From: Pseudarthrobacter defluvii
GTDB lineage: Bacteria > Actinomycetota > Actinomycetes > Actinomycetales > Micrococcaceae
Assembly (NCBI RefSeq): GCF_030323865.1
Contig: NZ_CP066364.1
Location: 1 to 64,000, forward strand
Length of the DNA: 64,000 bases
Reading direction: 5' to 3'
Below are positions 9,261-41,028 of this stretch, in pieces. The notes under the pieces were generated by a model, which saw only the letters and a list, made by a program, of their open reading frames with translations, made no database searches and was not told the origin of the DNA. The position numbers and the translations under genes are program-made. Position 1 is the stretch's first letter, and every line of letters begins with the position of its first letter.

Positions 9261-9329
9261 GCTTTCCCCTTTCTTAGAGCGTTTCAGTACTCAGACACGT
9301 AGGCAAGCGGGCGTGCAGGCCCCCTGGGG

Positions 9330-22527: not shown

Positions 22528-23064
22528 ATGCAGGAACTGCGGCAGGCTTCAGTCGCTATACCTTTCTACAGGGACGAGAAGGGGAATCTTCGCTTGGTAC
22601 TGATCAAACGATCAAACTATGGACAACATGGAAGCCAGATTTCGCTGCCTGGAGGCAATCGGGAACCACAGGACGAAGGTGCTTGGGACACTGCCCTTCG
22701 TGAAACTATCGAAGAGCTGGGATTGAGCACCAAGCAAATTGTTTTACTCTCTCAACTCGAACCAATTGATACCCACGTAACCCGCTATCGAGTTTCACCT
22801 TTCGTAGTCCAACTGCAGGGGATCACACCAAGCTTTGTATGGAAGCCTCAAATGGCGGAGGTCGAGGAGGTGGTCGATGTACCAGTGAATGTGCTGGCCT
22901 CCGAAACTGCAGCAGGAGAAGAAGAACTATGTTTTCCGGGCTGGAACACTCGGAGGAAAGTCCCCGTGCGGAGGTTTCAGGGGCATACAGTTTGGGGCCT
23001 AACCCTCCGAATCCTCGAGCCCGTATTGCCTCAGGCGCTGGCAGGAAAATGGCCCATATCGTGA
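22528..23064 (+). CDS. NUDIX hydrolase, CoA-pyrophosphatase-like
   Basis: The 178-residue protein has the Nudix box in LPGGNREPQDEGAWDTALRETIEELGL and the preceding HGSQISLPGG block of the CoA-diphosphatase subgroup. These enzymes hydrolyse nucleoside diphosphates linked to another moiety; CoA derivatives are the likely class. The ATG at 22528 has GGAG eight bases before it and is preferred to an in-frame TTG at 22516. The lower-GC, poorly biased codons differ from the pht genes, suggesting separate origin. Confidence 0.75.
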   Translation: MQELRQASVAIPFYRDEKGNLRLVLIKRSNYGQHGSQISLPGGNREPQDEGAWDTALRETIEELGLSTKQIVLLSQLEPIDTHVTRYRVSPFVVQLQGITPSFVWKPQMAEVEEVVDVPVNVLASETAAGEEELCFPGWNTRRKVPVRRFQGHTVWGLTLRILEPVLPQALAGKWPIS

Positions 23065-23318: not shown

Positions 23319-23658
23319 GAAGTCCTGCTGACAACCCAAAAAAAATCCGCCGCGGTTTCCATGGCCGCTCAGATCCATCGTCAACCGTGGCGCCAGACTG
23401 GAAGGCCGGGCGCCAAGGCTGTCTAACAGGACCTGACAAAGTCCCGGCTCGCTCCGTTGCCGCCCGAGCCTGGTTGATCTTCTTTTGGTATGGGATACAC
23501 CCCCTTCCTCGGGCACTCCCCCGCTCATTTTCGACTGGTAGCGGGACGTGTTGAAGTGGGACGAGTAGAAGTTCTTTTTGACCGGGGCATGTCTGGAGCG
23601 GATGTTCAAAATGCGAGTCATTTTTAAAGCCCTGAATGGACCCGGCTTATCGGCCGCA
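23319..23658. other. Intergenic region, no supported gene
   Basis: This 340-bp stretch between the SDR relic and the next minus-strand gene has only unconvincing short frames. Confidence 0.4.
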
Positions 23659-24144: not shown

Positions 24145-25632
24145 CTACTTCACCGTCCGAAGCGGTTCCTCGAGTCCGCCTCTTGTGTGGAAAGTGGACA
24201 TGTATTCCATGTAGTTTGCCGACGACGCCAGGGCATGGCGATCGATCGTGGCCGGGGAGTAGCCAAGGGCTTCAGCGATGATGGCCACGGGTGCGAGTTT
24301 GGTGAGTTCGTGAAGTGTTCCGAGCCTGGCCGCCCGACTGCTGAAAGCCGTGCTTAGCCGCTGGGTGAGGGTTGAGGCCTGGAGGTGCCGGCCTGGCGAG
24401 CCGCCTCTGAATACCCAGTTGCTGTTGGGGTGCGCGGCCGTTTGATGGTGGGTTGGCGTGACTGCTAGTTCTCGCCAGGGCTCATCGAGCGGAGGTGTGA
24501 GAGCGATTTCGACGGTTCCGAGGGTGATGGTGACGATTTCCTCGGTCACGGTGACGTTGTCCCAAGTGAGTTTGACGATGCCGGAGACTTGCTGGCCGAA
24601 GACCAGGACGAGGATAGCCGCTGCCCGGTCTCTGGGGTTCATGTCGGTCGTGTGGCTCAGGTTCTGGACGAGGCCGTTCTGGGCGGCTGCGTCGAGTCGT
24701 GGGCTGGTGCCGCGGCGGTGGGGCTGCAGTTGCAGGGAAGGGTCGATGAGGTTGGTTTTGGTTGCCCAGTCGAGGAAACGTGAGGCGATGCCTCGTGTCG
24801 TCGGGCCTTCCGCCTGCCATCGGTCCAGGTGCGCTTGATTCACTTCGGCGAGTTCGGCACCTTGATCGCTGAGCCAGTTCAGAAGTTCTACGGCGACGGT
24901 GACTGCCTGTTTGGCCCGCAGGAACGTTCCTCGGGTGACTTCGTCCATCTGGTTCATGCGGCGCTGGTGGTGCCAGCGGATGTAGAGGCGCATGATGTCG
25001 CGGTGGCTCGGGCTGGTGATCCTGTCGAGGGCTTGCTCGGCCCAGTCGCTGAACCTAATGCTAAGTTCATCGCGACGGGGCAGCGCATGGTGTTCGACGA
25101 GTAGGCCGCGGACGTATTCGCGGGTCCGGGACGCCGGTAGTTCGTCGAGGCGGGCGTGGGTGATCACAGGCTCGGCTGCCAGTTGTTGAAGGAATGCCGT
25201 GACGTGCGACTGCTGGATCCACGTGAGTCCGCTATTGGCGCGTTTCATGGACTTCAGAGCGGTGCCAATTACCTGAAGAGCGGCGGAGGGCGGCTCGTTG
25301 TCTGGGCTGAGGAGTCGGTCAATGGTCAGTGTAAGGATGCATGACCAGCAGCGGTTGCCGGAGTGGAGTTCGCCTTCCGTCCCGCATCCGATGCAGTCAA
25401 CGTTGAGCTGAACTCCGGAGCATTTCCGGCAGGCCGGCAGGGTGTCGACGCGTCCGGGCAGCACGCCGTTGTGGCCGCAGGCGCAGGTGCCTCGGGTTCT
25501 TTTGGCCTGCTGGTAGCAGTAGCCGCAGATTCCGGCGTCGGGCCACCGGACGGCGATTTTGTGGTGTTCGCCGCATCGCCCGCAGGCTTCCGGCCATTTG
25601 GTAGGGTCGCCGGCTTTGCGTGGCCTAGTCAT
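24145..25632 (-). CDS. Zinc-ribbon protein with degenerate tyrosine-recombinase domain (left module)
   Basis: The 495-residue protein has several N-terminal Cys pairs (CGRCGEH, CGYC, CACGHNG, CRKC, CIGCG, CWSC; residues about 15-110), then a helical region and a C-terminal domain with integrase-like layout. Where active recombinases have the first catalytic Arg (GxRxxE) it reads GQQVSGIVKLTWDNV, and no H-x-x-R motif is present; a GYSPATIDRHALASSANYMEYM tail remains. It therefore looks like a catalytically dead recombinase paralogue. The ATG at 25632 overlaps the Xre gene by 8 bp. Its homologue at 36999-38516 has the same neighbours. A DNA-binding accessory role in transposition is plausible. 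Confidence 0.65.
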   Translation of the reverse strand: MTRPRKAGDPTKWPEACGRCGEHHKIAVRWPDAGICGYCYQQAKRTRGTCACGHNGVLPGRVDTLPACRKCSGVQLNVDCIGCGTEGELHSGNRCWSCILTLTIDRLLSPDNEPPSAALQVIGTALKSMKRANSGLTWIQQSHVTAFLQQLAAEPVITHARLDELPASRTREYVRGLLVEHHALPRRDELSIRFSDWAEQALDRITSPSHRDIMRLYIRWHHQRRMNQMDEVTRGTFLRAKQAVTVAVELLNWLSDQGAELAEVNQAHLDRWQAEGPTTRGIASRFLDWATKTNLIDPSLQLQPHRRGTSPRLDAAAQNGLVQNLSHTTDMNPRDRAAAILVLVFGQQVSGIVKLTWDNVTVTEEIVTITLGTVEIALTPPLDEPWRELAVTPTHHQTAAHPNSNWVFRGGSPGRHLQASTLTQRLSTAFSSRAARLGTLHELTKLAPVAIIAEALGYSPATIDRHALASSANYMEYMSTFHTRGGLEEPLRTVK

Positions 25633-25978
25633 CTTCTTCCGGAGGCAGGACGCGGATCCGGCGGGCGATCGGCGCTCCAGGTGTGATGCCCAGGTCTTCT
25701 GGCCGCTTGGGTGCGTTGGCGGTTTTGGCGGCGCGCATCTGGACGTAGGGTTCGAACAGGTCGTTGGGCGTGCATTCGAGGATGTCACAGAGGGCCGCGA
25801 AGGTCTGGGCAGGAATGCGTTCGGGTGTACCGGTGACCAGTCGGTGGACCTGCGCGTTGGAGAGGTTGATGCCCCGGGCTTTGAGTAGGGGGAGCAGTTC
25901 GGTGGTCTTCCAGAGGTTCCGTCGAGCCATCAGTTGCCGGAGGTTCCAGCGGTAGCCGATCCGTCGCTGTTCAGCCAT
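25625..25978 (-). CDS. Xre/Cro-type HTH regulator (left module)
   Basis: The 117-residue protein contains a Cro/C1-type HTH (LMARRNLWKTTELLPLLKARGINLSNAQVHRLVTGTPERIPAQTFAALCDILECTPNDLFEP). It overlaps both the upstream recombinase remnant (8 bp) and the zinc-ribbon gene (8 bp), giving a three-gene unit: recombinase, Xre, zinc-ribbon protein. It may regulate the module or act as a directionality factor. Confidence 0.8.
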   Translation of the reverse strand: MAEQRRIGYRWNLRQLMARRNLWKTTELLPLLKARGINLSNAQVHRLVTGTPERIPAQTFAALCDILECTPNDLFEPYVQMRAAKTANAPKRPEDLGITPGAPIARRIRVLPPEEDD

Positions 25979-26112
25979 GATCGTTCCCCTCGCCGTCGCC
26001 GCTGCGTAGCCGCTGGGCGATCATTTTCTGGATGGTCTTCTGTTTGAAGTCCGCCGACACGGAAGTATAGAGGGCTGTGGTCGAGGAGTAGCTGTGCCCG
26101 ACCTGTTTCTGC
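25971..26112 (-). pseudogene. 3' end of tyrosine recombinase gene split by Tn554-like element (left)
   Basis: After the transposon end the frame reads QKQVGHSYSSTTALYTSVSADFKQKTIQKMIAQRL, containing the final His (VGHS) and the nucleophile Tyr (ALYTSV) of a tyrosine recombinase. The matching 5' part, which has the Arg and HTLRHSY motifs but no Tyr, lies on the far side of the transposon at 30105-31115 (or, if inversion has occurred, at 31575-32540). Joining at the Q codon gives a normal recombinase sequence. Confidence 0.85.
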
Positions 26113-26226
26113 ATTATCTTGAGCCCGTCGGGCTGGTGTGCCTCTGGCCTGCGGTTTTGTGTTGGTGGGTGTGTCCGGGACGTGCATGACGGTGGCATTG
26201 GCTGTCCTTCCATTCTCGTGGATCCG

Positions 26227-26640
26227 TTATGGATTCGGGATGGTCGCGGGGTCTGGTGATGGACTTTGGCGGCGTTGTCCGAGGGCGTGTGCGAGTTGCT
26301 GTCGCAGTCGTTGGTTCTCGTCGTTGAGTCGTCTGATTCTGTCGTTGGCCGCTTCTAGTCGTTGCCGTAGCGAGGCCTCGCTTGCCCGCTGTGGCCGGGA
26401 TTCCGGTGTGGGCTCCGGGGCGGCTTGGTTTTGGCGGAGGCGTTCGATTGCGGCGCGGAGGTCGGGCTGGGTGTAAAGCCAGGACCGGGAGACCCGGGCG
26501 TATCTGGCGACGGCGTCGAAAGTGACCGGGCGGCCTTCCGCATGAAGGGTGCGCAGCGCTTGGACGGCTTTGGACCTGGTGAGCGCCGCGCGCTGCTGTG
26601 CAGCTTTGACCAGGTGCCGGCTGTTGTCGGAGCGGTTCAT
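26227..26640 (-). CDS. tnpC: TnpC-like transposition protein (left copy)
   Basis: The 137-residue basic protein has an N-terminal HTH-like part (GRPVTFDAVARYARVSRSWLYTQPDLRAAIERLR) and a C-terminal coiled coil (LRQRLEAANDRIRRLNDENQRLRQQLAHAL). It resembles Tn554 TnpC, an accessory protein that influences frequency and orientation of transposition. Its start overlaps the tnpB stop by 4 bp. It is identical to the protein at 36005-36418. Confidence 0.75.
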   Translation of the reverse strand: MNRSDNSRHLVKAAQQRAALTRSKAVQALRTLHAEGRPVTFDAVARYARVSRSWLYTQPDLRAAIERLRQNQAAPEPTPESRPQRASEASLRQRLEAANDRIRRLNDENQRLRQQLAHALGQRRQSPSPDPATIPNP

Positions 26641-28880
26641 CCGGCGGCCTCGTCGGGTGCGGTGTCGTCGAGGGAGTCAATGATGCGGTCCAGGTTGTGC
26701 AGTACTGCCTGGTTCATCTCGATGAGCCGGGTCTGTCCGCGGGCTTCGGCGGCGGACAGGATCTGGACGGTCTGGCGGCGCTGCTCTTGGTGCTGGGGGA
26801 GGAACTCGGCGGTGGTGACAAACATGGGACAGGTCAGGCAGGCGTTGGCGTGCGGGCAGGACTTCTGAACCGGCAGCCCGCAGAATCCGTTCGGCAGGCT
26901 CTGTGTTGCGCGACCGAGGCGTTGTTTGGCCCAGCTGGCTTCGGCGAGTGGTCCTTGCGGGTCAATGGTGATGGTGTCGCCGTTGATGTTGACCTTACGG
27001 GCTTCCTCCCAGTGGCGGCGCACGGTTGTGTCGTGCAGCCGGGCGTAGTGGGCGGTCATCTCCGCCGAGGTGTGGTCGAGGAGGACCCGGACAACTTCCT
27101 GGGGAACGTCGCGGTTGATCAGTGTTGTCCCGAAGGTGTGGCGCCACTGATGTGGGGTCAGGCGCACCTCTTGTCCGTGTTCGTCGCGGATGTCGCAGCG
27201 TTCCAGCCAGTCTTCAAGCTGTCCGCGGTAGGAGTGCGTGGTGAGCGGTTTTGCTCCGTCGGGGTTCATCTTCGGGGCCGGGAACAACCAGTTGCTGCCG
27301 TCGGGGAATCGTTCGCGGACGCGTCGCTGCTGATCGAGGATGGCGGCGTGGACTTCCTCATCGAGGGGTACGAGGGCTTCGCGTTTCATCTTCCGGTTCA
27401 TATAGCGCAGGTAGGGGGCGCCGTCACCGTCACGGACCACGCAGTCGGTAGCGAGGTTGCAGGCGTCCCCGACGCGCAGTCCGCAGCGCATTAGGATCAG
27501 GGTGAGTAGCCGGCTGTCGGGGCTGGTCCATTTGCCGAGGTTTTCGGGTTGGTCCAGTTGCGCCATGATGTGATCGGCCAGGGCCCTGGGCAGTCGTTTG
27601 GCTGGTCGTGGGAAGTCTTCAGGGTAGAAGTTCGCCGATGCCGGCAGGTCTTTGGCCCAGTCGTGGCGGCGGATCGCGGCGAAGAAGGCGTTCAGGGAGC
27701 TGACGTCGCGGCCACGGGAAATTACTGCCCGTTTGTCCCGGGCGAGCTCGGCGAGGAAGCGTTCCAGGATGCCGCGGTCGATGCAGTCCGGGCCGTCGGA
27801 GTGGGGGATGGTGCGGGCGAGGAACGCGGCGAATCGGTTCAGGGCGAGGATGTCGACGCGCCCTTGGATGATTTCCCTGCCGCTGGTCAGCCGCCATCGG
27901 ATGAAGCGTTTTGCCAGGGGGCGCAGCCACGGTTGCGGGATCTTGTCGAAGCGGAGGGTGCCGCGGGTGTCGGTGTAGCCGAGGCGGTGCAGGGCCCAGG
28001 CGTCGCGGGAATACTCTGACTCCCAGCCGGTGCCGGCGACGAGGTCTTCGAGCCGGGTGTAGGCAAAGCGCAGGAACGCAAGTTGCCCGTTGTGGCGGTG
28101 ACTGCGGCCCACCCGGCCGGCGATATAGAACGCTGCCCACTGGTCAAGATTCCAGTCCAGCAGCGAGGTGACGCCGCTGTCGGAGACGAGCCGGATCACG
28201 GGCGTCACAACGGAGGAGCGGGTACTGGCCCGGCGTTCATCGTGGCGGCATTGCATGGCGTGCTGGAGCTCAAGCCGCAGCTGGGGACGATCTGCCAGGC
28301 ATCGGAAATCGAACCGGTCCAGGCCCACGCTTTCGCACCGGGCGACGAACTCGTCGATATCCGGTGCGCCAATGGCGTGCCAGCGGGACTTGTGGTTCAG
28401 ACACAACGGCGAGTTGCCTTGGGCCCAGAGGTCGCAGAACGCGAGCCTGCATTCGGGCCGCTCGATGACCGGCTCGGGTGAGAGGGTAGCGAGCCACTTA
28501 ATCACGTCGGTCTCGCTGGAACGACTGAAGAACCCGTGATGGCTGACGCAGAGGCCGCGTCTGGCCGAACCGAAGCGGCACCAGGTGACGGTGCATGCCG
28601 CCAAGGGGCCGTCGCCTACGGGTAATGGGCCGGGGCTGGCGAGGAATGACTCCCATTCGGGGCGTCCTTGGTCCAGCCAGCGCTTGTAGTGGCTTTTGCA
28701 GAACCCTTTCACCGTACGTTGCCGTTCACACTCGTCGATCCGGCAGGGCTCGGTGTTGAAGACGAGGGAGCCTGGGGCCGGGATCACGATTTCGGGTCTG
28801 AATTCGGGCCGGACGGTGGCCATGAGTTTAGCCAACAGACCGCAACCGTCCTCGTTTTCATTCAGTGCGAGGGAGCTCAC
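26637..28880 (-). CDS. tnpB: TnpB-like large tyrosine recombinase (left copy)
   Basis: The 747-residue protein has an N-terminal Cys/His-rich region (CRIDECERQRTVKGFCKSHYKRW and similar), a C-terminal recombinase domain with Arg in MRCGLRVGDACNL, H-x-x-R in TPHQWRHTFGTT, His in LLDHTS and Tyr in TAHYARLHD, and a final Cys cluster (CPHANACLTCPMF). Size and order match TnpB of Tn554 elements. All catalytic residues are present. It begins with GTG overlapping the tnpA stop (GTGA). Confidence 0.85.
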   Translation of the reverse strand: MSSLALNENEDGCGLLAKLMATVRPEFRPEIVIPAPGSLVFNTEPCRIDECERQRTVKGFCKSHYKRWLDQGRPEWESFLASPGPLPVGDGPLAACTVTWCRFGSARRGLCVSHHGFFSRSSETDVIKWLATLSPEPVIERPECRLAFCDLWAQGNSPLCLNHKSRWHAIGAPDIDEFVARCESVGLDRFDFRCLADRPQLRLELQHAMQCRHDERRASTRSSVVTPVIRLVSDSGVTSLLDWNLDQWAAFYIAGRVGRSHRHNGQLAFLRFAYTRLEDLVAGTGWESEYSRDAWALHRLGYTDTRGTLRFDKIPQPWLRPLAKRFIRWRLTSGREIIQGRVDILALNRFAAFLARTIPHSDGPDCIDRGILERFLAELARDKRAVISRGRDVSSLNAFFAAIRRHDWAKDLPASANFYPEDFPRPAKRLPRALADHIMAQLDQPENLGKWTSPDSRLLTLILMRCGLRVGDACNLATDCVVRDGDGAPYLRYMNRKMKREALVPLDEEVHAAILDQQRRVRERFPDGSNWLFPAPKMNPDGAKPLTTHSYRGQLEDWLERCDIRDEHGQEVRLTPHQWRHTFGTTLINRDVPQEVVRVLLDHTSAEMTAHYARLHDTTVRRHWEEARKVNINGDTITIDPQGPLAEASWAKQRLGRATQSLPNGFCGLPVQKSCPHANACLTCPMFVTTAEFLPQHQEQRRQTVQILSAAEARGQTRLIEMNQAVLHNLDRIIDSLDDTAPDEAAG

Positions 28881-29983
28881 CAGGTGACCTCTTTTCCGGT
28901 CAGCAGCCCTGCCTTTTCGAGGGCGCGGCGGGCGTCCTCAACGGTGAGGTGGCCGTAGACGTCGATGGTGGTTGCGACCGATGCGTGGCCAAGCAGGCTG
29001 CTGATCACTTCGATGGGTGTCCCGGCTCGTAGCAAGCGGGTGGCATAGGTGTGGCGGAACCAGTGCGGGTCAAAATCCACTCCAGTGTCCCGGCGCAGCC
29101 GCTTCACCAGGTCATAGACTGCCGCGTAGCCCATCGGGCGGCCGCGGGGGCCCGCCCACAGATTCACGAACACGTAGTCGCTGTCCAGATCTCCGTATTC
29201 CTCGTGAAGGTAGTCGCCGTAGAGCCGCACGACGTCCGCGCCGATCGGTATCGTGCGCGGCGAAACGGACTTCGCCCGGGCACGGTTGGCGTTCACCCGA
29301 CGGCGGATCGTCAGCTCGCCCTCGGCGACTGCAATGTCCTCATGCCTTAGTCCGAGTGCTTCGCCGATACGGATTCCCGACTCCCAGAGCAGGACGAACA
29401 GGAACCGGTCCCTCAGCCGCGTGCACGCATCCAGCACTGCTTGAGCCGTCGCCGCAGGCAGGACCGTGGGCAACCTCTTCGGCTCACGCAGCTTCACGAT
29501 CCTGCGCCGCTGCGGCCTGTCCCCGGCAAGGTGAGCAAGGAACGGTCTCCATCCCGTTCTTCGGTACCGGACCGTTTCGAACTCGGTGACAAGGTCGCCC
29601 AGCGGGACCCCGTGACGGGAGTGGAACACGTAAAAGCCGCTCACGGCCGCGAGCTTGCGGTTCAACGTGCCCGGCCCGCAGTGATGGGAAGCCGATGGCA
29701 GCAGCGTCACGTCAGCGGCGCGCCCGGCAGGCGGAAGCCGCAGCCAAGCGACGAACTCGCCGACGTTCTCCAGCCTCACCTGGCGCCAATCAATGCCGCG
29801 GTGGCGAAGAAAGACGAACCAATCCTTGAGATCATGCGCATACGCCTTGAGCGTGTTCGGCGACCTCTCGACGTCGGTCAGGTAAGCCAAAAACCGCTCC
29901 ACCGGCTCAACGACACCATGATCATCAAGCACAGTCCACGACTCAAGCGGCGAACCGGACACCAAAACTCGTTGAACCTGCAT
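28877..29983 (-). CDS. tnpA: TnpA-like tyrosine recombinase (left copy)
   Basis: The 368-residue recombinase has an N-terminal SAM-like DNA-binding domain (FLAYLTDVERSPNTLKAYAHDLKDWFVFL) and catalytic residues Arg (ESGIRIGEALGLR), H-x-x-R (HWFRHTYAT), His (LLGHAS) and Tyr (TIDVYGHL). It is full length and fits Tn554 TnpA. The first gene of the transposon, it begins about 120 bp inside the end. The copy at 32662-33768 encodes the same protein. Confidence 0.88.
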   Translation of the reverse strand: MQVQRVLVSGSPLESWTVLDDHGVVEPVERFLAYLTDVERSPNTLKAYAHDLKDWFVFLRHRGIDWRQVRLENVGEFVAWLRLPPAGRAADVTLLPSASHHCGPGTLNRKLAAVSGFYVFHSRHGVPLGDLVTEFETVRYRRTGWRPFLAHLAGDRPQRRRIVKLREPKRLPTVLPAATAQAVLDACTRLRDRFLFVLLWESGIRIGEALGLRHEDIAVAEGELTIRRRVNANRARAKSVSPRTIPIGADVVRLYGDYLHEEYGDLDSDYVFVNLWAGPRGRPMGYAAVYDLVKRLRRDTGVDFDPHWFRHTYATRLLRAGTPIEVISSLLGHASVATTIDVYGHLTVEDARRALEKAGLLTGKEVTW

Positions 29984-30104
29984 GAACCCTCCCGCGATCC
30001 CGTGTGATGGACAGCTTCAGATAAGCACCTCCATCACGCGGAACTGCACGGTTACGGGCCCCGTGCTGCACGTCAAAGACACCCCGGTTCCTGCCCCAGA
30101 TAAG

Positions 30105-31115
30105 CTGGATGAACAGCGGGTCGTAGCCGGCCTCGATCAGATGAGTGACGTACGAGTGCCTCAGGGTGTGCAGGGTCAGTTCCTCCGGCAGGCCGGCGAT
30201 CGTCCGCACCCGCTGAAAAGACCGGTCGAAGTTGCGGAAAACAGTGGAACCAGAGCGCTCCGAAGGCCACAGGCTAGCGGACCGGTCAGCGGTCGGGAAA
30301 CGTTTCCGGCCGTCAGAGGAGAGCCAGTGCTCAAGGAGCCCAACCACCCAATCGAACTCGGGAACCGTCAGAACGGTGCGCCGTCGGGGTCCGGAACCCT
30401 TGGTTCCCTTGGCCCACCGCACCTGGAGTGCCCCGAAGCGGCCGAACTGCTCGACGTGCGGATTGGGACCAAAATCGACGTACTCGAGCATCACCAGTTC
30501 GCGCCGCCGCAGCCCGTATGCATAGCCCACCTTGAACGCCGTCGAGTCCCTGAATGCTGGCAGCCAGCGTTTGGAACCCTTGGCGAACTCTGTGTCGACC
30601 AGGTCGTCGGCAGCGTCGAAGAACGTCTGCAGTTCTGTCCGGGTGAACGCCCGGCGGCGTGCCGGCAGGGCATCGTCCGTCGTGTGTCGTGGCGAGTTCC
30701 ACTCGAACACGACCTGCACCGGAATGTCCGCGAAGACCCGCTCACAGAACGTGGCCCAACCGTAACGCCCGTCCGTTAGATAGGAACAGAAAGCCCTGAT
30801 GGCCCCGGAGTTTGTCCTCAGGGTTGATAACGCCAACCCTTTCTCTGAGCTGCGGCGGTCTGCCAGAAATTCATCCACGTGATGCGCCGACCACGTCCAC
30901 GGATACTCGTTCGCGTGCTCCTGGAACTTCTGGATCGTCCCGCATGAGCTCTTGATGTACGACGTCGACAGACCGCGAGCCAGCATCTGTGCACGCCAGC
31001 CATCCACCATCGCCTCGAAGACTCGATCCTCGGCACGCAGCAGCCCGACATTCGCGTTGGTCAGAAAGGCCGGAATCCGCCCAGATTCGATACTCACTGA
31101 GCTAACTGTACGCAA
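30105..31115 (-). pseudogene. 5' part of tyrosine recombinase gene split by Tn554-like element (left)
   Basis: About 337 codons remain, from a SAM-like N-terminal domain (LSTSYIKSSCGTIQKFQEHANEYPWTW) through the catalytic Arg (YGLRRRELVML) and H-x-x-R (TLRHSYVTH), ending at DPLFIQ. The open frame then runs into the transposon until 29943 and lacks the final His and Tyr. An inverted repeat overlaps its start region, perhaps for autoregulation. It is about 40-50 percent similar by eye to the divergent gene at 31575. Confidence 0.85.
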
Positions 31116-31118
31116 AAA

Positions 31119-31137
31119 TCTCTCATCTAATGAGAGA
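31119..31137. promoter_or_regulatory. Inverted repeat at the start of the left recombinase gene
   Basis: TCTCTCAT-CTA-ATGAGAGA is a perfect 8-bp palindrome four bases upstream of the probable start codon. It may be an operator for the module's Xre protein. Confidence 0.4.
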
Positions 31138-31574
31138 CTACGTCACTGTGCCGCGGCGTCCCGCGCAAACGCTGACTTCCAGCAATCGACGTCAATTGGT
31201 CATTGCACCGCACTGACCTGCGCAAACATCAAAAAACAGGATGAGACGAGTTCTCTAATCTACTTCTACTCGTCCTACTCAAACGCCGATAATGGAGATT
31301 ATGTAAAGCTGTACTCTGCGTATTGCATCAGATGAATCAATCCACCCCGATCCCCTATGGTTGCTTGGCTCGGCTCCTGAGCCTCGAATTCCGCGGATTT
31401 GTAGGCGGTGCTCGGCTGATGCGCAGTCACGCAAGCCGCTCCAAGCGGACCAAAGCGTCGGCGCTTGAGCGTCCCTGAAGGGCGTTTGACCTGCGGTTTT
31501 GCGCTGATGATGCATTTAATGAATCATTGATTCAGTTATTGAATGTGGTTTGAGGGCGACTTTGGGAGCGAACT
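31138..31574. other. Divergent intergenic region between the two recombinase modules
   Basis: No gene is seen. It includes the 32-base motif at 31311-31342 that recurs at 1993-2024, and a palindrome TGAATCA-T-TGATTCA at 31520-31534 near the right recombinase start. It is locally AT-richer than its surroundings and probably holds the promoters of both modules and the meeting point of two element ends. Confidence 0.45.
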
Positions 31575-32540
31575 GTGGCGGTTGACGGGTCCGGGCGCGT
31601 GCTGCAGTTGAATGCCGTTTCGTTGCTGCATCCCGAGGAGCAGACGCTCGAGGACATGTTCACCGGCTGGCGCAACCAGCAGCTCTCCCGGAATCTGCAG
31701 TTCGACACGATCGACAAGGGAATCGCCAGTGTCCGCAGGTTCGTGAACCATGTGAACGAGTTTCCGTGGAACTGGGCGCCGGAGCATGTAGAGGAGTACT
31801 TCGGTGATCTCCGCTCGATCCGTCAGCTGAAGCACTCCACCGTCCGCGGCTACCAGTCAATGCTCCGCCGTTTCTCGTCCTACGTCTCGAACCCCGATTA
31901 CGGCTGGGACAGGGTCTGTGAGCAGCGTTTCGGCACGCACCCGTCCCAGGTCTTCTTCGACTGGAACACGGCAACCCACACCCAGGAGTACGAAGGACAG
32001 CCGTCGAAGAGGCCCTTTACCAAGGCCGAGTTGCAGATGCTGTTCGATCATGCGGACGACCAGGTCGAGCTCATTGCGGCGTCAGGCAAGAAGGGCTGGA
32101 AGGCAGCCTATCGGGACGCCGTCATGCTGAAAATCACCTACTCGTACGGGCTGAGGTTCAACGAGCTGCGTCACCTGCAAACCGTCGATTTCGCAACCAA
32201 CCCTCAGGCGCGCAGGTTCGGAAAAGCAGGTGTTTGCAAGGTCCGGTTCGGCAAGTCACGCAAGGGTTCCCCCTACAAACCTCGCAGCGTCCTGACCGTC
32301 TTCGACTGGAGCGCTGGCATCATCGAGGACTGGCTCGCCAACGGCCGGGGAACTCTCGACACCCTGGATCTTTTCCCCAGCGAACGCGGCGGCCTGATCT
32401 GTGAATCAACCCTGCTGCGTCGGCTCCGGCGCTACCTGAACGAGCTGGACCTGCCGCTGGAGGGTCTCGATCTGCACTCCCTGCGCCGCAGCTATGCGAC
32501 GCACCTGTTGGAGGACGGATGGGATCCTAGATTCGTGCAA
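31575..32540 (+). pseudogene. 5' part of tyrosine recombinase gene split by Tn554-like element (right)
   Basis: This 322-codon part starts with GTG. It has the N-terminal DNA-binding domain (NLQFDTIDKGIASVRRFVNHVNEFPWNW), Arg in YGLRFNELRHL and H-x-x-R in SLRRSYATHLLEDGWDPRFVQ, and then enters the transposon at the same codon as its left paralogue. The open frame ends within the transposon at 32702. The Tyr-bearing end lies at 36533-36677. Confidence 0.85.
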
Positions 32541-32661
32541 CTTATCTGGGGCAGGAACCGGGGTGTCTTTGACGTGCAGCACGGGGCCCGTAACCGTGCA
32601 GTTCCGCGTGATGGAGGTGCTTATCTGAAGCTGTCCATCACACGGGATCGCGGGAGGGTTC

Positions 32662-33768
32662 ATGCAGGTTCAACGAGTTTTGGTGTCCGGTTCGCCGCTT
32701 GAGTCGTGGACTGTGCTTGATGATCATGGTGTCGTTGAGCCGGTGGAGCGGTTTTTGGCTTACCTGACCGACGTCGAGAGGTCGCCGAACACGCTCAAGG
32801 CGTATGCGCATGATCTCAAGGATTGGTTCGTCTTTCTTCGCCACCGCGGCATTGATTGGCGCCAGGTGAGGCTGGAGAACGTCGGCGAGTTCGTCGCTTG
32901 GCTGCGGCTTCCGCCTGCCGGGCGCGCCGCTGACGTGACGCTGCTGCCATCGGCTTCCCATCACTGCGGGCCGGGCACGTTGAACCGCAAGCTCGCGGCC
33001 GTGAGCGGCTTTTACGTGTTCCACTCCCGTCACGGGGTCCCGCTGGGCGACCTTGTCACCGAGTTCGAAACGGTCCGGTACCGAAGAACGGGATGGAGAC
33101 CGTTCCTTGCTCACCTTGCCGGGGACAGGCCGCAGCGGCGCAGGATCGTGAAGCTGCGTGAGCCGAAGAGGTTGCCCACGGTCCTGCCTGCGGCGACGGC
33201 TCAAGCAGTGCTGGATGCGTGCACGCGGCTGAGGGACCGGTTCCTGTTCGTCCTGCTCTGGGAGTCGGGAATCCGTATCGGCGAAGCACTCGGACTAAGG
33301 CATGAGGACATTGCAGTCGCCGAGGGCGAGCTGACGATCCGCCGTCGGGTGAACGCCAACCGTGCCCGGGCGAAGTCCGTTTCGCCGCGCACGATACCGA
33401 TCGGCGCGGACGTCGTGCGGCTCTACGGCGACTACCTTCACGAGGAATACGGAGATCTGGACAGCGACTACGTGTTCGTGAATCTGTGGGCGGGCCCCCG
33501 CGGCCGCCCGATGGGCTACGCGGCAGTCTATGACCTGGTGAAGCGGCTGCGCCGGGACACTGGAGTGGATTTTGACCCGCACTGGTTCCGCCACACCTAT
33601 GCCACCCGCTTGCTACGAGCCGGGACACCCATCGAAGTGATCAGCAGCCTGCTTGGCCACGCATCGGTCGCAACCACCATCGACGTCTACGGCCACCTCA
33701 CCGTTGAGGACGCCCGCCGCGCCCTCGAAAAGGCAGGGCTGCTGACCGGAAAAGAGGTCACCTGGTGA
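32662..33768 (+). CDS. tnpA: TnpA-like tyrosine recombinase (right copy)
   Basis: The 368-residue product is identical to that of 28877-29983, with all catalytic residues (Arg, H-x-x-R, His, Tyr) intact. It overlaps tnpB by 4 bp (GTGA). Confidence 0.88.
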   Translation: MQVQRVLVSGSPLESWTVLDDHGVVEPVERFLAYLTDVERSPNTLKAYAHDLKDWFVFLRHRGIDWRQVRLENVGEFVAWLRLPPAGRAADVTLLPSASHHCGPGTLNRKLAAVSGFYVFHSRHGVPLGDLVTEFETVRYRRTGWRPFLAHLAGDRPQRRRIVKLREPKRLPTVLPAATAQAVLDACTRLRDRFLFVLLWESGIRIGEALGLRHEDIAVAEGELTIRRRVNANRARAKSVSPRTIPIGADVVRLYGDYLHEEYGDLDSDYVFVNLWAGPRGRPMGYAAVYDLVKRLRRDTGVDFDPHWFRHTYATRLLRAGTPIEVISSLLGHASVATTIDVYGHLTVEDARRALEKAGLLTGKEVTW

Positions 33769-36008
33769 GCTCCCTCGCACTGAATGAAAACGAGGACGGT
33801 TGCGGTCTGTTGGCTAAACTCATGGCCACCGTCCGGCCCGAATTCAGACCCGAAATCGTGATCCCGGCCCCAGGCTCCCTCGTCTTCAACACCGAGCCCT
33901 GCCGGATCGACGAGTGTGAACGGCAACGTACGGTGAAAGGGTTCTGCAAAAGCCACTACAAGCGCTGGCTGGACCAAGGACGCCCCGAATGGGAGTCATT
34001 CCTCGCCAGCCCCGGCCCATTACCCGTAGGCGACGGCCCCTTGGCGGCATGCACCGTCACCTGGTGCCGCTTCGGTTCGGCCAGACGCGGCCTCTGCGTC
34101 AGCCATCACGGGTTCTTCAGTCGTTCCAGCGAGACCGACGTGATTAAGTGGCTCGCTACCCTCTCACCCGAGCCGGTCATCGAGCGGCCCGAATGCAGGC
34201 TCGCGTTCTGCGACCTCTGGGCCCAAGGCAACTCGCCGTTGTGTCTGAACCACAAGTCCCGCTGGCACGCCATTGGCGCACCGGATATCGACGAGTTCGT
34301 CGCCCGGTGCGAAAGCGTGGGCCTGGACCGGTTCGATTTCCGATGCCTGGCAGATCGTCCCCAGCTGCGGCTTGAGCTCCAGCACGCCATGCAATGCCGC
34401 CACGATGAACGCCGGGCCAGTACCCGCTCCTCCGTTGTGACGCCCGTGATCCGGCTCGTCTCCGACAGCGGCGTCACCTCGCTGCTGGACTGGAATCTTG
34501 ACCAGTGGGCAGCGTTCTATATCGCCGGCCGGGTGGGCCGCAGTCACCGCCACAACGGGCAACTTGCGTTCCTGCGCTTTGCCTACACCCGGCTCGAAGA
34601 CCTCGTCGCCGGCACCGGCTGGGAGTCAGAGTATTCCCGCGACGCCTGGGCCCTGCACCGCCTCGGCTACACCGACACCCGCGGCACCCTCCGCTTCGAC
34701 AAGATCCCGCAACCGTGGCTGCGCCCCCTGGCAAAACGCTTCATCCGATGGCGGCTGACCAGCGGCAGGGAAATCATCCAAGGGCGCGTCGACATCCTCG
34801 CCCTGAACCGATTCGCCGCGTTCCTCGCCCGCACCATCCCCCACTCCGACGGCCCGGACTGCATCGACCGCGGCATCCTGGAACGCTTCCTCGCCGAGCT
34901 CGCCCGGGACAAACGGGCAGTAATTTCCCGTGGCCGCGACGTCAGCTCCCTGAACGCCTTCTTCGCCGCGATCCGCCGCCACGACTGGGCCAAAGACCTG
35001 CCGGCATCGGCGAACTTCTACCCTGAAGACTTCCCACGACCAGCCAAACGACTGCCCAGGGCCCTGGCCGATCACATCATGGCGCAACTGGACCAACCCG
35101 AAAACCTCGGCAAATGGACCAGCCCCGACAGCCGGCTACTCACCCTGATCCTAATGCGCTGCGGACTGCGCGTCGGGGACGCCTGCAACCTCGCTACCGA
35201 CTGCGTGGTCCGTGACGGTGACGGCGCCCCCTACCTGCGCTATATGAACCGGAAGATGAAACGCGAAGCCCTCGTACCCCTCGATGAGGAAGTCCACGCC
35301 GCCATCCTCGATCAGCAGCGACGCGTCCGCGAACGATTCCCCGACGGCAGCAACTGGTTGTTCCCGGCCCCGAAGATGAACCCCGACGGAGCAAAACCGC
35401 TCACCACGCACTCCTACCGCGGACAGCTTGAAGACTGGCTGGAACGCTGCGACATCCGCGACGAACACGGACAAGAGGTGCGCCTGACCCCACATCAGTG
35501 GCGCCACACCTTCGGGACAACACTGATCAACCGCGACGTTCCCCAGGAAGTTGTCCGGGTCCTCCTCGACCACACCTCGGCGGAGATGACCGCCCACTAC
35601 GCCCGGCTGCACGACACAACCGTGCGCCGCCACTGGGAGGAAGCCCGTAAGGTCAACATCAACGGCGACACCATCACCATTGACCCGCAAGGACCACTCG
35701 CCGAAGCCAGCTGGGCCAAACAACGCCTCGGTCGCGCAACACAGAGCCTGCCGAACGGATTCTGCGGGCTGCCGGTTCAGAAGTCCTGCCCGCACGCCAA
35801 CGCCTGCCTGACCTGTCCCATGTTTGTCACCACCGCCGAGTTCCTCCCCCAGCACCAAGAGCAGCGCCGCCAGACCGTCCAGATCCTGTCCGCCGCCGAA
35901 GCCCGCGGACAGACCCGGCTCATCGAGATGAACCAGGCAGTACTGCACAACCTGGACCGCATCATTGACTCCCTCGACGACACCGCACCCGACGAGGCCG
36001 CCGGATGA
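33765..36008 (+). CDS. tnpB: TnpB-like large tyrosine recombinase (right copy)
   Basis: The 747-residue product is identical to that of 26637-28880: Cys/His-rich N-terminal region, intact recombinase domain and C-terminal Cys cluster. It overlaps tnpC by 4 bp (ATGA). Confidence 0.85.
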   Translation: MSSLALNENEDGCGLLAKLMATVRPEFRPEIVIPAPGSLVFNTEPCRIDECERQRTVKGFCKSHYKRWLDQGRPEWESFLASPGPLPVGDGPLAACTVTWCRFGSARRGLCVSHHGFFSRSSETDVIKWLATLSPEPVIERPECRLAFCDLWAQGNSPLCLNHKSRWHAIGAPDIDEFVARCESVGLDRFDFRCLADRPQLRLELQHAMQCRHDERRASTRSSVVTPVIRLVSDSGVTSLLDWNLDQWAAFYIAGRVGRSHRHNGQLAFLRFAYTRLEDLVAGTGWESEYSRDAWALHRLGYTDTRGTLRFDKIPQPWLRPLAKRFIRWRLTSGREIIQGRVDILALNRFAAFLARTIPHSDGPDCIDRGILERFLAELARDKRAVISRGRDVSSLNAFFAAIRRHDWAKDLPASANFYPEDFPRPAKRLPRALADHIMAQLDQPENLGKWTSPDSRLLTLILMRCGLRVGDACNLATDCVVRDGDGAPYLRYMNRKMKREALVPLDEEVHAAILDQQRRVRERFPDGSNWLFPAPKMNPDGAKPLTTHSYRGQLEDWLERCDIRDEHGQEVRLTPHQWRHTFGTTLINRDVPQEVVRVLLDHTSAEMTAHYARLHDTTVRRHWEEARKVNINGDTITIDPQGPLAEASWAKQRLGRATQSLPNGFCGLPVQKSCPHANACLTCPMFVTTAEFLPQHQEQRRQTVQILSAAEARGQTRLIEMNQAVLHNLDRIIDSLDDTAPDEAAG

Positions 36009-36418
36009 ACCGCTCCGACAACAGCCGGCACCTGGTCAAAGCTGCACAGCAGCGCGCGGCGCTCACCAGGTCCAAAGCCGTCCAAGCGCTGCGCACCCTT
36101 CATGCGGAAGGCCGCCCGGTCACTTTCGACGCCGTCGCCAGATACGCCCGGGTCTCCCGGTCCTGGCTTTACACCCAGCCCGACCTCCGCGCCGCAATCG
36201 AACGCCTCCGCCAAAACCAAGCCGCCCCGGAGCCCACACCGGAATCCCGGCCACAGCGGGCAAGCGAGGCCTCGCTACGGCAACGACTAGAAGCGGCCAA
36301 CGACAGAATCAGACGACTCAACGACGAGAACCAACGACTGCGACAGCAACTCGCACACGCCCTCGGACAACGCCGCCAAAGTCCATCACCAGACCCCGCG
36401 ACCATCCCGAATCCATAA
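36005..36418 (+). CDS. tnpC: TnpC-like transposition protein (right copy)
   Basis: The 137-residue product is identical to that of 26227-26640, with an HTH-like N-terminal part and a C-terminal coiled coil. About 110 bp of non-coding DNA separate it from the transposon end. Confidence 0.75.
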   Translation: MNRSDNSRHLVKAAQQRAALTRSKAVQALRTLHAEGRPVTFDAVARYARVSRSWLYTQPDLRAAIERLRQNQAAPEPTPESRPQRASEASLRQRLEAANDRIRRLNDENQRLRQQLAHALGQRRQSPSPDPATIPNP

Positions 36419-36532
36419 CGGATCCACGAGAATGGAAGGACAGCCAATGCCACCGTCATGCACGTCCCGGACACACCCACCAACACAAAACCGCAGGCCA
36501 GAGGCACACCAGCCCGACGGGCTCAAGATAAT

Positions 36533-36677
36533 CCAGCATCAGATGGGCCACGAACATGCCTCCACCACGGGGATCTACCAGTTTGTCAGCGATGACTTTC
36601 GCAACGCCACGCTCCGCGCGGCCCTGGACCGCACCATGGACGAAGTCCTGGGCGTGCAGCTGCGGGGGCAATGGTGA
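36533..36677 (+). pseudogene. 3' end of tyrosine recombinase gene split by Tn554-like element (right)
   Basis: The frame reads QHQMGHEHASTTGIYQFVSDDFRNATLRAALDRTMDEVLGVQLRGQW-stop, with the final His (MGHE) and Tyr (GIYQFV) of a tyrosine recombinase. Joined to ...GWDPRFVQ at 32540 it restores a canonical recombinase C-terminus. The stop overlaps the Xre gene start by 7 bp. Confidence 0.85.
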
Positions 36678-37009
36678 GGCGCGAAGTCGAATACAAATGG
36701 CGGCTTTCGGAGCTCATGGCAGCCCGGGGACTTCACAACACCACCGACCTCATCCCTCTTCTGGCTGAGCGCGGCATCACCCTCTCACGGCCACAGGTCT
36801 ACCGGCTCGTCAACCAGAAACCGGAACGCGTCGCATTGCAGGTCATCGCCGCGATCTGCGACATCTTTTCCTGCGGCCCCGAGGACCTCATCACCGTCAC
36901 AGCCGCCGACGCTCGAGCCCGGAAAACCGGCACCAGCGCCCCCAACGTCGTCGACTTGAACCGCACCGTCAGACCACGACGGGCACGCATCATCGACGAT
37001 GACCACTGA
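36671..37009 (+). CDS. Xre/Cro-type HTH regulator (right module)
   Basis: The 112-residue protein is a paralogue of the left-module regulator (KWRLSELMAARGLHNTTDLIPLLAERGITLSRPQVYRLVNQKPERVALQVIAAICDIFSCGPEDLI), with the same overlaps to recombinase end and zinc-ribbon gene. The parallel order in both modules marks a conserved three-gene unit. Confidence 0.8.
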   Translation: MVRREVEYKWRLSELMAARGLHNTTDLIPLLAERGITLSRPQVYRLVNQKPERVALQVIAAICDIFSCGPEDLITVTAADARARKTGTSAPNVVDLNRTVRPRRARIIDDDH

Positions 37010-38516
37010 GCAACCCCAAGGCCTGACTCCGCGGAACACCAGCCGCGGCCGGCCCCGCACCACCGGGACCGCGACGTGCGCACGCTGCGGCCGGGCCGCC
37101 GGCAAGACACGAGCCACCTGGCCTGAAGGAAAAATCTGCGGACCCTGTTTCACTACAGCCACCCGCACTCACGGGACCTGCCCCGACTGCGGCCAGCACC
37201 GGTTGCTGCCCGGACCGCCCTCGGCCGCCGGGGGTCCCCGCTGCGCACCCTGCGCCGACATCCTCCATGACTTCCACTGCAGCCGCTGCAACACGGAAGG
37301 CGAGTTCTACCGGCGTGGCATCTGCGCCCGCTGCGCCCTCCGGGACGACCTCAATGAACTGCTGCTCACACACGGGGCCGCCCAAGAGACAGTGAGCAAG
37401 ATCGTTGATGTCCTCTGCAAGGCGGACCGGCCTGAGAGCATCATCACTTGGAAACGCTCCCCCAAGGTCCAAGCCCTTCTTGTTTCTCTGTCATGCGGAA
37501 AGACTCCCTTGACGCACGAAGGCTTCGACGCGGCAGCTGAGTCGGCGGAACGACCAGCCAATCACCTGCGGGCCCTGTTCATCCATCACGGGCTCCTCCC
37601 CTACCAGGACCCGCATCTGGCCCGGTTCGAGACCTGGATTAACGACAAACTCCGCGACCTGGCTGAAGAAATTGCTAAGCCCGTCCTGCAGTTCGCCACC
37701 TGGCATCACCTCCGTCGCATCCGGTCCATGACAACACCGGAGAAGAGCGCCCAAGCCCCGGTGCACTCCGCCAAACAAGAGATCACCGAAACTATCAAAT
37801 TCCTGGCCTGGCTCCGGGATACCCACCAGCGGACTGCCGCGAACTGCAACCAGCAAGACGTCGAAACCTGGCTCGCCACCGGACCGACAACCAGGAAAGC
37901 CATCCGCACGTTCATTGTCTTCATCAAGAACACCGGCACAAACCACCGGGTGGAGATGGGCCACTACACCGCGAAATCACGGCCAACGATCACCCAGGAC
38001 CAGCGCTTGGCATGGCTGCGGGAACTACTCACAGGCACCAGCGAGTCCCTGCCCTACCGAATCGCCGGCGCGCTACTGCTTCTCTATGCCCAACCACTGG
38101 TCAGGGTTGCCAAACTCCGTGTCGACGCCATAGAGACCAACGAAACCACCGGGGCTATGCGGGTCACCTTAGGTCTCCACCCAGTGCCCACCCCCGAGCC
38201 TGTCACGGAACTCATTCGAGAGCACCTGGCAAACCGGCCAAACCTCAGAACCGGTTCAGATACCCAAAGCCCTTGGCTCTTTCCCGGAACACGAGCCGGC
38301 CAGCCTCTTCACCCGAACACCATCATGGACAGGCTCCGCAGCCTCGGTATCGACCTGCGCGGCGCACGAAACACCGCCCTCGACGAACATCTCCTAGCCT
38401 CACCGCCACCACTGGTCGCCGACGCCCTCGGATACGGCCACCAAATCGCCTTCCTCCACGCCGACGCAGCAGGCGACGCCTGGTCACGCTACGTCAACCT
38501 GCGAAGTAGACCTTGA
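36999..38516 (+). CDS. Zinc-ribbon protein with degenerate tyrosine-recombinase domain (right module)
   Basis: The 505-residue paralogue of the 24145-25632 product has the same N-terminal Cys pairs (CARCGRAAG, CGPC, CPDCGQH, CAPC, CSRCNTEGE, CARC) and the same C-terminal layout. The catalytic Arg site reads YAQPLVRVAKLRVDAIE and no H-x-x-R is found, so it is also likely inactive as recombinase. It overlaps the Xre gene by 11 bp. The Zn-ribbon part may bind DNA ends or another module protein. Confidence 0.65.
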   Translation: MTTEQPQGLTPRNTSRGRPRTTGTATCARCGRAAGKTRATWPEGKICGPCFTTATRTHGTCPDCGQHRLLPGPPSAAGGPRCAPCADILHDFHCSRCNTEGEFYRRGICARCALRDDLNELLLTHGAAQETVSKIVDVLCKADRPESIITWKRSPKVQALLVSLSCGKTPLTHEGFDAAAESAERPANHLRALFIHHGLLPYQDPHLARFETWINDKLRDLAEEIAKPVLQFATWHHLRRIRSMTTPEKSAQAPVHSAKQEITETIKFLAWLRDTHQRTAANCNQQDVETWLATGPTTRKAIRTFIVFIKNTGTNHRVEMGHYTAKSRPTITQDQRLAWLRELLTGTSESLPYRIAGALLLLYAQPLVRVAKLRVDAIETNETTGAMRVTLGLHPVPTPEPVTELIREHLANRPNLRTGSDTQSPWLFPGTRAGQPLHPNTIMDRLRSLGIDLRGARNTALDEHLLASPPPLVADALGYGHQIAFLHADAAGDAWSRYVNLRSRP

Positions 38517-38819: not shown

Positions 38820-39096
38820 GCGCGGGTGTCTCCCTGCATGTCCCAACCACGGGCCCTATGGGAGGAATACGCCCACGTCCAATCCGCAGGGATGCCAGTA
38901 GTTTGCTTTAAGCTTCAAGTGAACTGCTATTTTCAGAATACACCTACCACTCCTGCTGCCCAATCAGAACGGGGCTAACACCGGACACTGAGGAGTACCG
39001 ACCCGTCTCCTCTCCAGCTTTGGCCAGCCCACAGTTCCGCTTGTTTAGCGTTGCATTTTCGTTGCTTTCCTTTTGCAAGCCTGCGATGATGGAGAG

Positions 39097-39477
39097 ATGG
39101 AAGCAACGACCCGGCATGACATTCACCTGGGGACCACCCGGATGAATATCCACGACCTTGTGCGCGAACTCAATGAGAATCTGGGTACGACCGTTGTCCA
39201 GACCATGGCCGGAGTGAAGGACCGCACGTCTCCGTTTCGCTGGGCGAAGCCTGACGGCCCGGAGCCCCGCCCGGAGGTCGAGTCACGCCTGCGCCTGGGT
39301 CATCGTGTCTGGAAGACACTTGAGCTCGCTGAAGGAAAGCATGTTGCGTTGGCCTGGTTGATGGGCGCCAACCCGCGCCTGGACGAGGAACTTCCTGTCC
39401 TTTACATTCAGCAGCTGCGTTCCCGGGAGGTTTTGGGGGCAGCCGAATCGTTCGTGAATGACACTTACGCCGCATGA
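39097..39477 (+). CDS. Antitoxin of RES-Xre (MbcTA-like) pair
   Basis: The 126-residue protein has an N-terminal region likely to bind DNA and a C-terminal part (RLRLGHRVWKTLELAEGKHVALAWLMGANPRLDEELPVLYIQQLRSREVLGAAESFV) that resembles the toxin-binding domain of Xre/MbcA/ParS antitoxins. The ATG at 39097 has GGAGAG upstream. Its stop overlaps the RES gene start by 4 bp. In this family the antitoxin blocks the toxin active site and represses its own promoter. Confidence 0.7.
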   Translation: MEATTRHDIHLGTTRMNIHDLVRELNENLGTTVVQTMAGVKDRTSPFRWAKPDGPEPRPEVESRLRLGHRVWKTLELAEGKHVALAWLMGANPRLDEELPVLYIQQLRSREVLGAAESFVNDTYAA

Positions 39478-40283
39478 TCACGGCCGACAAGGTTCGCCGG
39501 TGCGACTTGACGGGGCTGACTCTTGTTGGGGCTGCCGGCGAGATTTCGTTCAGGGTGGCGAAGGACCGTTACGGTGCGTTGTCGGTCAGGAAGAATTCCA
39601 TCGTTGGCCCGATGCCTATCGGAACGGCCGCAGGCAGCGATTCCCGGGGACGGTACGACAGCATAGGCTCGACGATCTATCTCGCCGACTCCCGCCAGTG
39701 CGCCTACGCCGAGGTATTGCTTGGCTTCCGGCAGCAGCGCGCGTCCGTTGCCAAGGCCGCGGAATCCATCGGATGGACGGTCGAGGACTACATCGCCAGT
39801 GTCCGGGCCCAGGCCGAGGAGAACGGGATTGACGTCCCATGGGCCATATCCGTGGACTGGCAAATGGACCGTTCGATTTACGAAATTCGCCTCCCTGGTC
39901 AGGGGTGGTGGGTTCAGATAGACGACGCGGCCACCCTCCGCGCCCTTGAAGCCCTCACACCAACCACGGCGGGGCTGACCGAACGCTTGCAGCTCCTCAC
40001 GGCCGGCTCCCTCACCGGTGACGACCGTGATCTGACAACCCTGCTCGCGCACGTTATCCGCGGAACGGTGTTAGACGATGGCTCAGAACCACTGGGTATC
40101 AGCTACCCGTCAAAAACACTGACTGGAAGGTGCTGGGCCTACTGGGACCGACGGGCTGACGAAGGCCTCTCCCCCAGCCGCAACGGCCTCCTGCAGCTGA
40201 CCTCCGAAAATGTCGGACCGGACCCTGAATTCCACCGTGTAGCCGAACTGTACGGTCTACCGGTCCTCGGAGCTCGCCCGTGA
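39474..40283 (+). CDS. RES-domain toxin
   Basis: The 269-residue protein has RES-type motifs: Arg in ISFRVAKDRYG, GRYDSIGSTIYLADSRQCAYAEVLLGFR with conserved Tyr and Glu, and a later GISYPSKTLTGRCWAYWDRR segment containing the Ser region. RES toxins degrade NAD+ (phosphorolysis or hydrolysis), causing stasis. It is longer than typical RES toxins (about 150-230), with an insertion in the middle. With the upstream antitoxin it likely stabilises the plasmid. Confidence 0.7.
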   Translation: MITADKVRRCDLTGLTLVGAAGEISFRVAKDRYGALSVRKNSIVGPMPIGTAAGSDSRGRYDSIGSTIYLADSRQCAYAEVLLGFRQQRASVAKAAESIGWTVEDYIASVRAQAEENGIDVPWAISVDWQMDRSIYEIRLPGQGWWVQIDDAATLRALEALTPTTAGLTERLQLLTAGSLTGDDRDLTTLLAHVIRGTVLDDGSEPLGISYPSKTLTGRCWAYWDRRADEGLSPSRNGLLQLTSENVGPDPEFHRVAELYGLPVLGARP

Positions 40284-40377
40284 AATCAAGGAAATCTTCC
40301 GAGCGCCGCTCCGATAGGCCGCCAACCGCTGGCGGCTGCAGGACTTGCCGGCCGTTGGCAGAGGGGTCCCGGCTAGA

Positions 40378-40974: not shown

Positions 40975-40986
40975 TCGAAAACCCTC

Positions 40987-41028
40987 AGTAGTAGTAGGAG
41001 TAGTACCAAAACTACTCCTACTACTACT
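40987..41028. promoter_or_regulatory. Perfect 18-bp inverted repeat upstream of kfrA
   Basis: AGTAGTAGTAGGAGTAGT and its exact complement are separated by 6 bp. It begins 12 bp from the kfrA start. KfrA proteins bind palindromes overlapping their promoter, so this is the likely autoregulatory site. Confidence 0.7.

Follow-up and report, generated by a model that had tools for sequence, protein, structure and literature searches.

Within the window, by which we mean the whole 64,000-nucleotide stretch of Pseudarthrobacter defluvii DNA that was analyzed, there are two copies of one element, facing each other (Table 1). Positions 26113-30104 on the reverse strand and 32541-36532 on the forward strand show complete identity across 3,992 bp, which ends exactly at those bounds. 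The terminal base at each end is common to otherwise differing flanking cores, and the element proper is therefore 3,990 bp, with no mismatch between left and right copies. It starts with TTATCTGGGGC and finishes with GCTCAAGATAA, the ends forming a short imperfect inverted repeat. A second TTATCT motif is found at 32621-32634, 80 bp inward of the left end, and relatives show similar internal motifs. The three genes of the element have overlapping reading frames. Judged from its sequence, the unit is a cargo-free, site-specific transposon of the Tn554 type, with the tyrosine recombinases TnpA and TnpB plus TnpC. A search of the genome, assembled in four contigs with 100% completeness, found these two copies alone, both on the 80,076-bp contig C3. 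This contig has DNA in common with Arthrobacter plasmids, for example pJ337-114 (typed as conjugative), and is taken to be a plasmid.

Table 1. Coordinates, in the window, of the two element copies, their cores and the interrupted genes
Feature	Position	Strand	Remarks
Left element copy	26114..30103	-	3,990 bp; matches right copy exactly; termini TTATCT/AGATAA
Right element copy	32542..36531	+	3,990 bp; matches left copy exactly; termini TTATCT/AGATAA
tnpA, left copy	28877..29983	-	from the list of open reading frames
tnpB, left copy	26637..28880	-	from the list of open reading frames
tnpC, left copy	26227..26640	-	from the list of open reading frames
tnpA, right copy	32662..33768	+	368 aa, tyrosine recombinase; PF00589 and PF02899
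tnpB, right copy	33765..36008	+	747 aa, long tyrosine recombinase; PF00589
tnpC, right copy	36005..36418	+	137 aa; DUF6262
Left core of left copy	30104..30109	-	TCCAGC; equals empty site of left gene in 4/4 plasmids examined
Right core of left copy	26108..26113	-	TGCAGA; foreign; equals left core in pAO1/NtRoot
Left core of right copy	32536..32541	+	TGCAAC; equals empty site of right gene in 3/4 plasmids examined
Right core of right copy	36532..36537	+	TCCAGC; foreign; equals left core of left copy
Left recombinase gene, N-part	30105..31115	-	PF00589 up to profile position 151
Left recombinase gene, C-part	25971..26111	-	continuous with N-part in L011-L013
Right recombinase gene, N-part	31575..32540	+	PF00589 up to profile position 151 of 172; 91% identity to residues 2-327 of intact FB24 gene
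Right recombinase gene, C-part	36534..36677	+	90% identity to residues 319-368 of intact FB24 gene
Left host unit, HTH protein and 547-aa protein	24145..25978	-	open reading frames
Right host unit, HTH protein and 505-aa protein	36671..38516	+	HTH_26

Each copy lies after the Gln codon of the motif DP(L/R)F(I/V)Q in a tyrosine recombinase gene, in the sense orientation relative to that gene and within the stretch that we take to be box II. The description in the first-pass annotation, of two identical Tn554-like copies at the same codon of two paralogous recombinase genes, thus stands. The N-part of each interrupted gene encodes the first Arg and the HxxR motif, and the C-part encodes the final His and the Tyr, so that neither gene as arranged can yield a whole enzyme. 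A Pfam search with the short C-parts gave nothing useful. The N-part of the right gene continues in frame into the element (31575-32702), with a stop 41 nt beyond the start of tnpA, and its C-part is in frame with an open reading frame beginning within the element (36432-36677). It is possible that tnpA is coupled to translation of the host gene.

The two interrupted genes are divergent, and each heads a unit comprising a recombinase, an HTH protein and a protein of 505 or 547 aa. Pfam gave no match above cut-off for the 505-aa protein of the right unit, and a weak match to PF00589, below cut-off, for the 547-aa protein of the left. In pJ337-114 (L012) the left host unit is bordered by DNA matching window positions 39026-41000 and, on the opposite side, 22829-23064; these flanks make the right host unit look like an additional insertion next to the left one. 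Two exact copies of the sequence GGACGAGTAGAAGT, in inverted orientation to each other, bracket the left host unit at 23559-23572 and 31262-31275, and the sequence is also found upstream of the left recombinase gene in L012-L014 and, with one mismatch, in L011. The unit of recombinase, HTH and large protein may itself be a mobile element.

Empty sites in related recombinase genes, which the first-pass annotation had suggested looking for, were found for both interrupted genes as intact genes on four plasmids each (eight places inspected, from 50 and 58 records having the N-parts of the two genes). The empty site of the right gene reads ...TTCG[TGCAAC]ATCA... in L006 (FW306-07-I), L007 (Sphe3) and L008 (FB24), with TGCAAT as the core in L009 (Hiyo8), and that of the left gene ...TT(C/T)A[TCCAGC]AGCAGG... 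in L011-L014. The N- and C-halves flanking each element are the halves of one intact gene in the empty plasmids. In both insertions the element has the native 6-bp core of the target to its left, and the core to its right is foreign. The flanking hexamers had been read correctly in the earlier annotation, but the crossover core is offset from them by one base, giving TCCAGC/TGCAGA for the left copy and TGCAAC/TCCAGC for the right. A core set one base leftward was rejected because all right cores of the clade described below would open with the A of AGATAA, while the left cores vary at that base.

The same arrangement is found in other genomes. The loci compared were the best 80 of 118 in a scan, and in a TnpA tree the window falls within an 18-row clade (support 100/100) made up of the window, pAO1 and 16 loci. 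Twelve of the 16 have both flanks in box II and two have a readable left flank there, so that box II is the site in 14 of the 15 clade loci with readable flanks; L054 and L120 among the clade look like a single insertion. The exception, L057, is not within a recognizable recombinase gene, and L052 has no flank. Insertion in this box II clade is in the sense orientation. PF00589 matches were obtained for 14 of the 17 left pieces (from 14 clade loci, both window copies and pAO1), and the HTH gene of the host unit was found on 12 of 13 right flanks tested (12 loci and pAO1), the remaining one being that of L051, which is only 126 bp long. With this HTH gene on the right flanks, the observed target narrows to box II within a single recombinase family, rather than the box II of tyrosine recombinases in general that had first been proposed. 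The hosts are Arthrobacter, Streptomyces, Mycobacterium, Nocardia and Streptosporangiaceae MAGs. In L045 (Arthrobacter sp. M2012083) 148 bp of the element are inverted (9228-9375) and tnpA is open for just 257 codons, and the elements of L048, L049 and L051 (Streptomyces, Streptosporangiaceae MAG) are 4.8-5.4 kb long, 0.8-1.4 kb beyond that of the window.

Across the wider family a flank could be read at 66 of the 80 loci (14 had none), and in 47 of these the target is a gene of a mobile element, 46 assigned by junction rules and one, L061, placed via NCBIfam at a different Tn3 site. The targets are tyrosine recombinase (14), IS5 (11), IS256 (9, L062 weakly), Tn3 (6), IS1380 (4) and TniB (3), and insertions in IS256, IS1380 and IS5 occur in both orientations. 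Target classes track TnpA clades loosely, and a single target for the whole family was discarded: one 13-row TnpA clade has ten loci in IS5, L099 in TniB and two without flank, and Tn3 targets are found in more than one clade. Since other clades occupy other transposase genes, the idea of a safe harbor in integrases put forward in the first-pass annotation extends further than was proposed there. The notion that all insertions lie in mobile genes was also dropped, 19 of the 66 readable loci not being assigned to one. Seven of these are of Arthrobacter type (L095, L104-L108, L122), with ends ATATCT/AGATAT and mostly palindrome-like sites (AAACG..CG / CG..CGTTT) in no one recognizable gene. Another seven are of Brevibacterium/Nesterenkonia type (L066, L068, L070, L071, L074, L077, L078), with the left end not at its usual position; in L070, L071 and L078 candidate left ends lie about 2.0 kb further upstream. 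The others are L057, L060, L110, L111 and L115.

Both flanks fall in the same target class at 30 loci. In a control of 20,000 random position pairs in the same loci no pair did so (single-side rates 68 and 107), although, as the junction rules were derived from the same data, this shows no more than that the rules are not loose. In library searches with 26 non-clade loci the class was confirmed in 21, and the other five gave no match (L060, L083, L086, L110, L115); for L083 and L086, and for the class loci outside this set, the motif is thus the sole basis of assignment. Junctions recur at the same profile positions. The Mutator pieces of L064, L072, L073, L076 and L118 share an end at position 338. 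Matches to DUF4158 begin at position 47 in both L075 and L080, and matches to DDE_Tnp_1 at position 35 in both L091 and L103. Position 352 is the end of the IS1380 pieces of L101 and L131 and the beginning of that of L098, and the TniB pieces of L084 and L099 end at position 149. The searches gave no match for pieces of L083, L060, L115, L110 and L132 or the left piece of L099; Pfam gave none for L061, L101, L086 and the right piece of L072, and NCBIfam none for the right piece of L099. A hold-out set of 394 genomes contained eight loci besides the window's own, and one of them, L133, seems a repeat of L101, having the same left flank and an equally long contig. The left end was located in four of the seven others: one is an IS1380 piece ending at position 352, one an IS5 piece, one an IS3-family match stopping short of the junction and one has no match. 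Nine contigs consist of the element alone (L052, L059, L063, L081, L085, L092, L093, L102, L124), with at most 15 bp beyond the ends, as expected from assembly collapse of copies with different flanks, or from circles.

The cores suggest how the copies are related. Six near-identical plasmid records were found, and in the three fetched for comparison, pNtRootA2, pNtRootA4 and pAO1, the element differs from that of the window at 0, 0 and 2 of its 3,990 positions. The left core of all three is TGCAGA, the right core of the left copy in the window. The pAO1 element likewise occupies the box II site, in a recombinase remnant with a shortened N-part. Our best reading, and the simplest order, would be two copy events in the manner of Tn554, from a pAO1-type element to the left copy and from there to the right copy. 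Natural empty sites, together with insertions found in other genomes, support the left-to-right core transfer put forward in the first-pass annotation. The step from the left to the right copy is likely rather than proven, since TCCAGC is frequent as a left core, being present in five further clade-mates (L045, L046, L048, L050, L051). Left and right cores are equal in six of the 15 clade cases with both ends (L047, L048, L051, L055, L056, pAO1), and these are therefore uninformative about the donor. There is a second pair of donor and daughter type: the right core of L053, TGCAAG, is the left core of L054/L120, and TnpA is identical.

We propose that this lineage recognizes the box II stretch in a single family of tyrosine recombinase genes of actinobacteria, and that crossover would occur within a 6-bp core, T-x-C-A-R-n, containing the Gln codon. 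On insertion the target core would stay on the left, and the left core of the donor would be delivered at the right end. The left copy would derive from a pAO1/NtRoot-type copy, and the right copy, in the neighboring paralogue, from the left copy, which would have remained in position. Movement would be copying in effect, which fits the presumed donor still being present in the plasmid. The ends, the cores, the empty sites, the identity of the copies and the recurrent insertion at one codon are direct observations, to which we add by inference the order of events, a circular intermediate, replication during transfer and the roles of the three Tnp proteins. According to the accessible text of PMC10214605 and PMC12486829, a 6-bp donor-core footprint is left by SEs and by elements related to Tn554, and Tn552-II has a circular intermediate. 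For this explanation as a whole we estimate a probability of about 0.8.

Other histories could leave a similar pattern. Identical inverted arms of 4 kb are able to recombine, and the first-pass annotation had offered, as an alternative, an inversion of the central 2.4 kb between two older copies. This was rejected for the present arrangement, and is very improbable, because the original halves are still paired: the halves facing each other across each element are pairs in the intact genes of the empty plasmids, and the left cores are the empty sites of those same genes. It is somewhat easier to imagine that both copies came from independent outside donors, as several other insertions have TCCAGC as their left core and another such donor might exist. 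This too is unlikely, however, for copies that are identical over 3,990 bp and just 2.4 kb apart, when L046, the one insertion fetched that lies in an almost identical left gene, with left core TCCAGC, carries an element only 96% identical to that of the window.

The exact identity might instead point to an assembly artefact duplicating one copy, to which we give very little credence; there are four distinct junctions, each matching the empty relatives of its own gene, in an assembly of few contigs and full completeness. The least credible proposal is that insertions in recombinases and transposases are mere survivors of random insertion into dispensable genes. The target genes are dispensable, and the non-assigned loci of the wider family could be cited in its favor, but the same codon has been struck across genera, at Mutator position 338 in five loci, at IS1380 position 352 and at box II in 14 loci.

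The element has the traits of the Tn554 family: tnpA and tnpB, both encoding tyrosine recombinases, and tnpC all run in one direction, and both copies are site-specific, with no target duplication, the target core on the left and the donor core on the right. Its proteins are related to those of a Lysinibacillus element, presumably of the Tn558 type, with identities of 37% (TnpA), 31% (TnpB) and 34% (TnpC, over a 74-residue stretch). Gene order, Pfam domains, this kinship and the core pattern bear out the Tn554-like identity given in the earlier annotation. The Lysinibacillus element adjoins a JAB-domain gene, just upstream, and the resistance gene fexA, whereas the element in the window is without cargo. 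The order tnpABC is common to it and the Tn554/Tn558-type elements of Firmicutes, but the target genes differ; Tn554 itself inserts in radC, and the element in the window in box II of a tyrosine recombinase gene. It is filed as a Tn554 family member with a new target rule. Published members of the family also use further targets, and for Tn552-II the donor core is brought to the right end, according to the accessible part of PMC12486829.

Actinobacterial Tn554-related transposons were defined in 2012 by Van Houdt et al. (PMC3414803). Like the element here, those in the accessible text combine a short and a long tyrosine recombinase gene with a TnpC-like one; they occur in Actinobacteria on plasmids as well as chromosomes, and some genomes have several identical copies; that text names no target, suggesting merely that several similar attB sites may exist. 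Strand-biased circularizing integrative elements (SEs; Idola et al. 2023, PMC10214605) also leave a 6-bp footprint, with the left core of the donor forming the new right end as here; in the portion of that paper available, copy-out copy-in is proposed and one SE is inserted in insJ of IS3. The four core genes of an SE (intA, tfp, intB, srap) are not the gene set here, however, there being three genes, no tfp counterpart and none between tnpA and tnpB. A RIT element has three adjacent tyrosine recombinases, whereas the third gene here encodes DUF6262. In the accessible text of PMC10494377 and PMC4342571 the Tn554-like genes of pAO1 are part of a putative 49-kb catabolic (nicotine) transposon, but we observe them as a distinct 3,990-bp unit, bounded by ends of its own, within a recombinase remnant, and a role as mobilizer of the 49-kb cluster therefore fits poorly. 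Our searches of the open literature, with most subscription papers outside their scope, found no report of elements of this kind targeting box II or transposase genes.

An aim can now be given to a lineage of the actinobacterial Tn554-related transposons, which the accessible text of the 2012 description (PMC3414803) left open. With donor and daughter comparable in a single case alongside empty sites of both kinds, the route of Tn554 transposition becomes testable, and doubt is cast on the Tn554 genes of pAO1 mobilizing the nicotine cluster. We think it rather probable that the actinobacterial Tn554-related transposons are largely 'transposase hunters', lineages each targeting one conserved codon of the recombination genes of other mobile elements. 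If so, insertion would silence a competitor at no cost to the cell, new sites would be found wherever mobile DNA travels, and the descent of daughter copies from their donors could be read from the 6-bp cores. This points to mobile elements whose niche would be the enzymes of other mobile elements.
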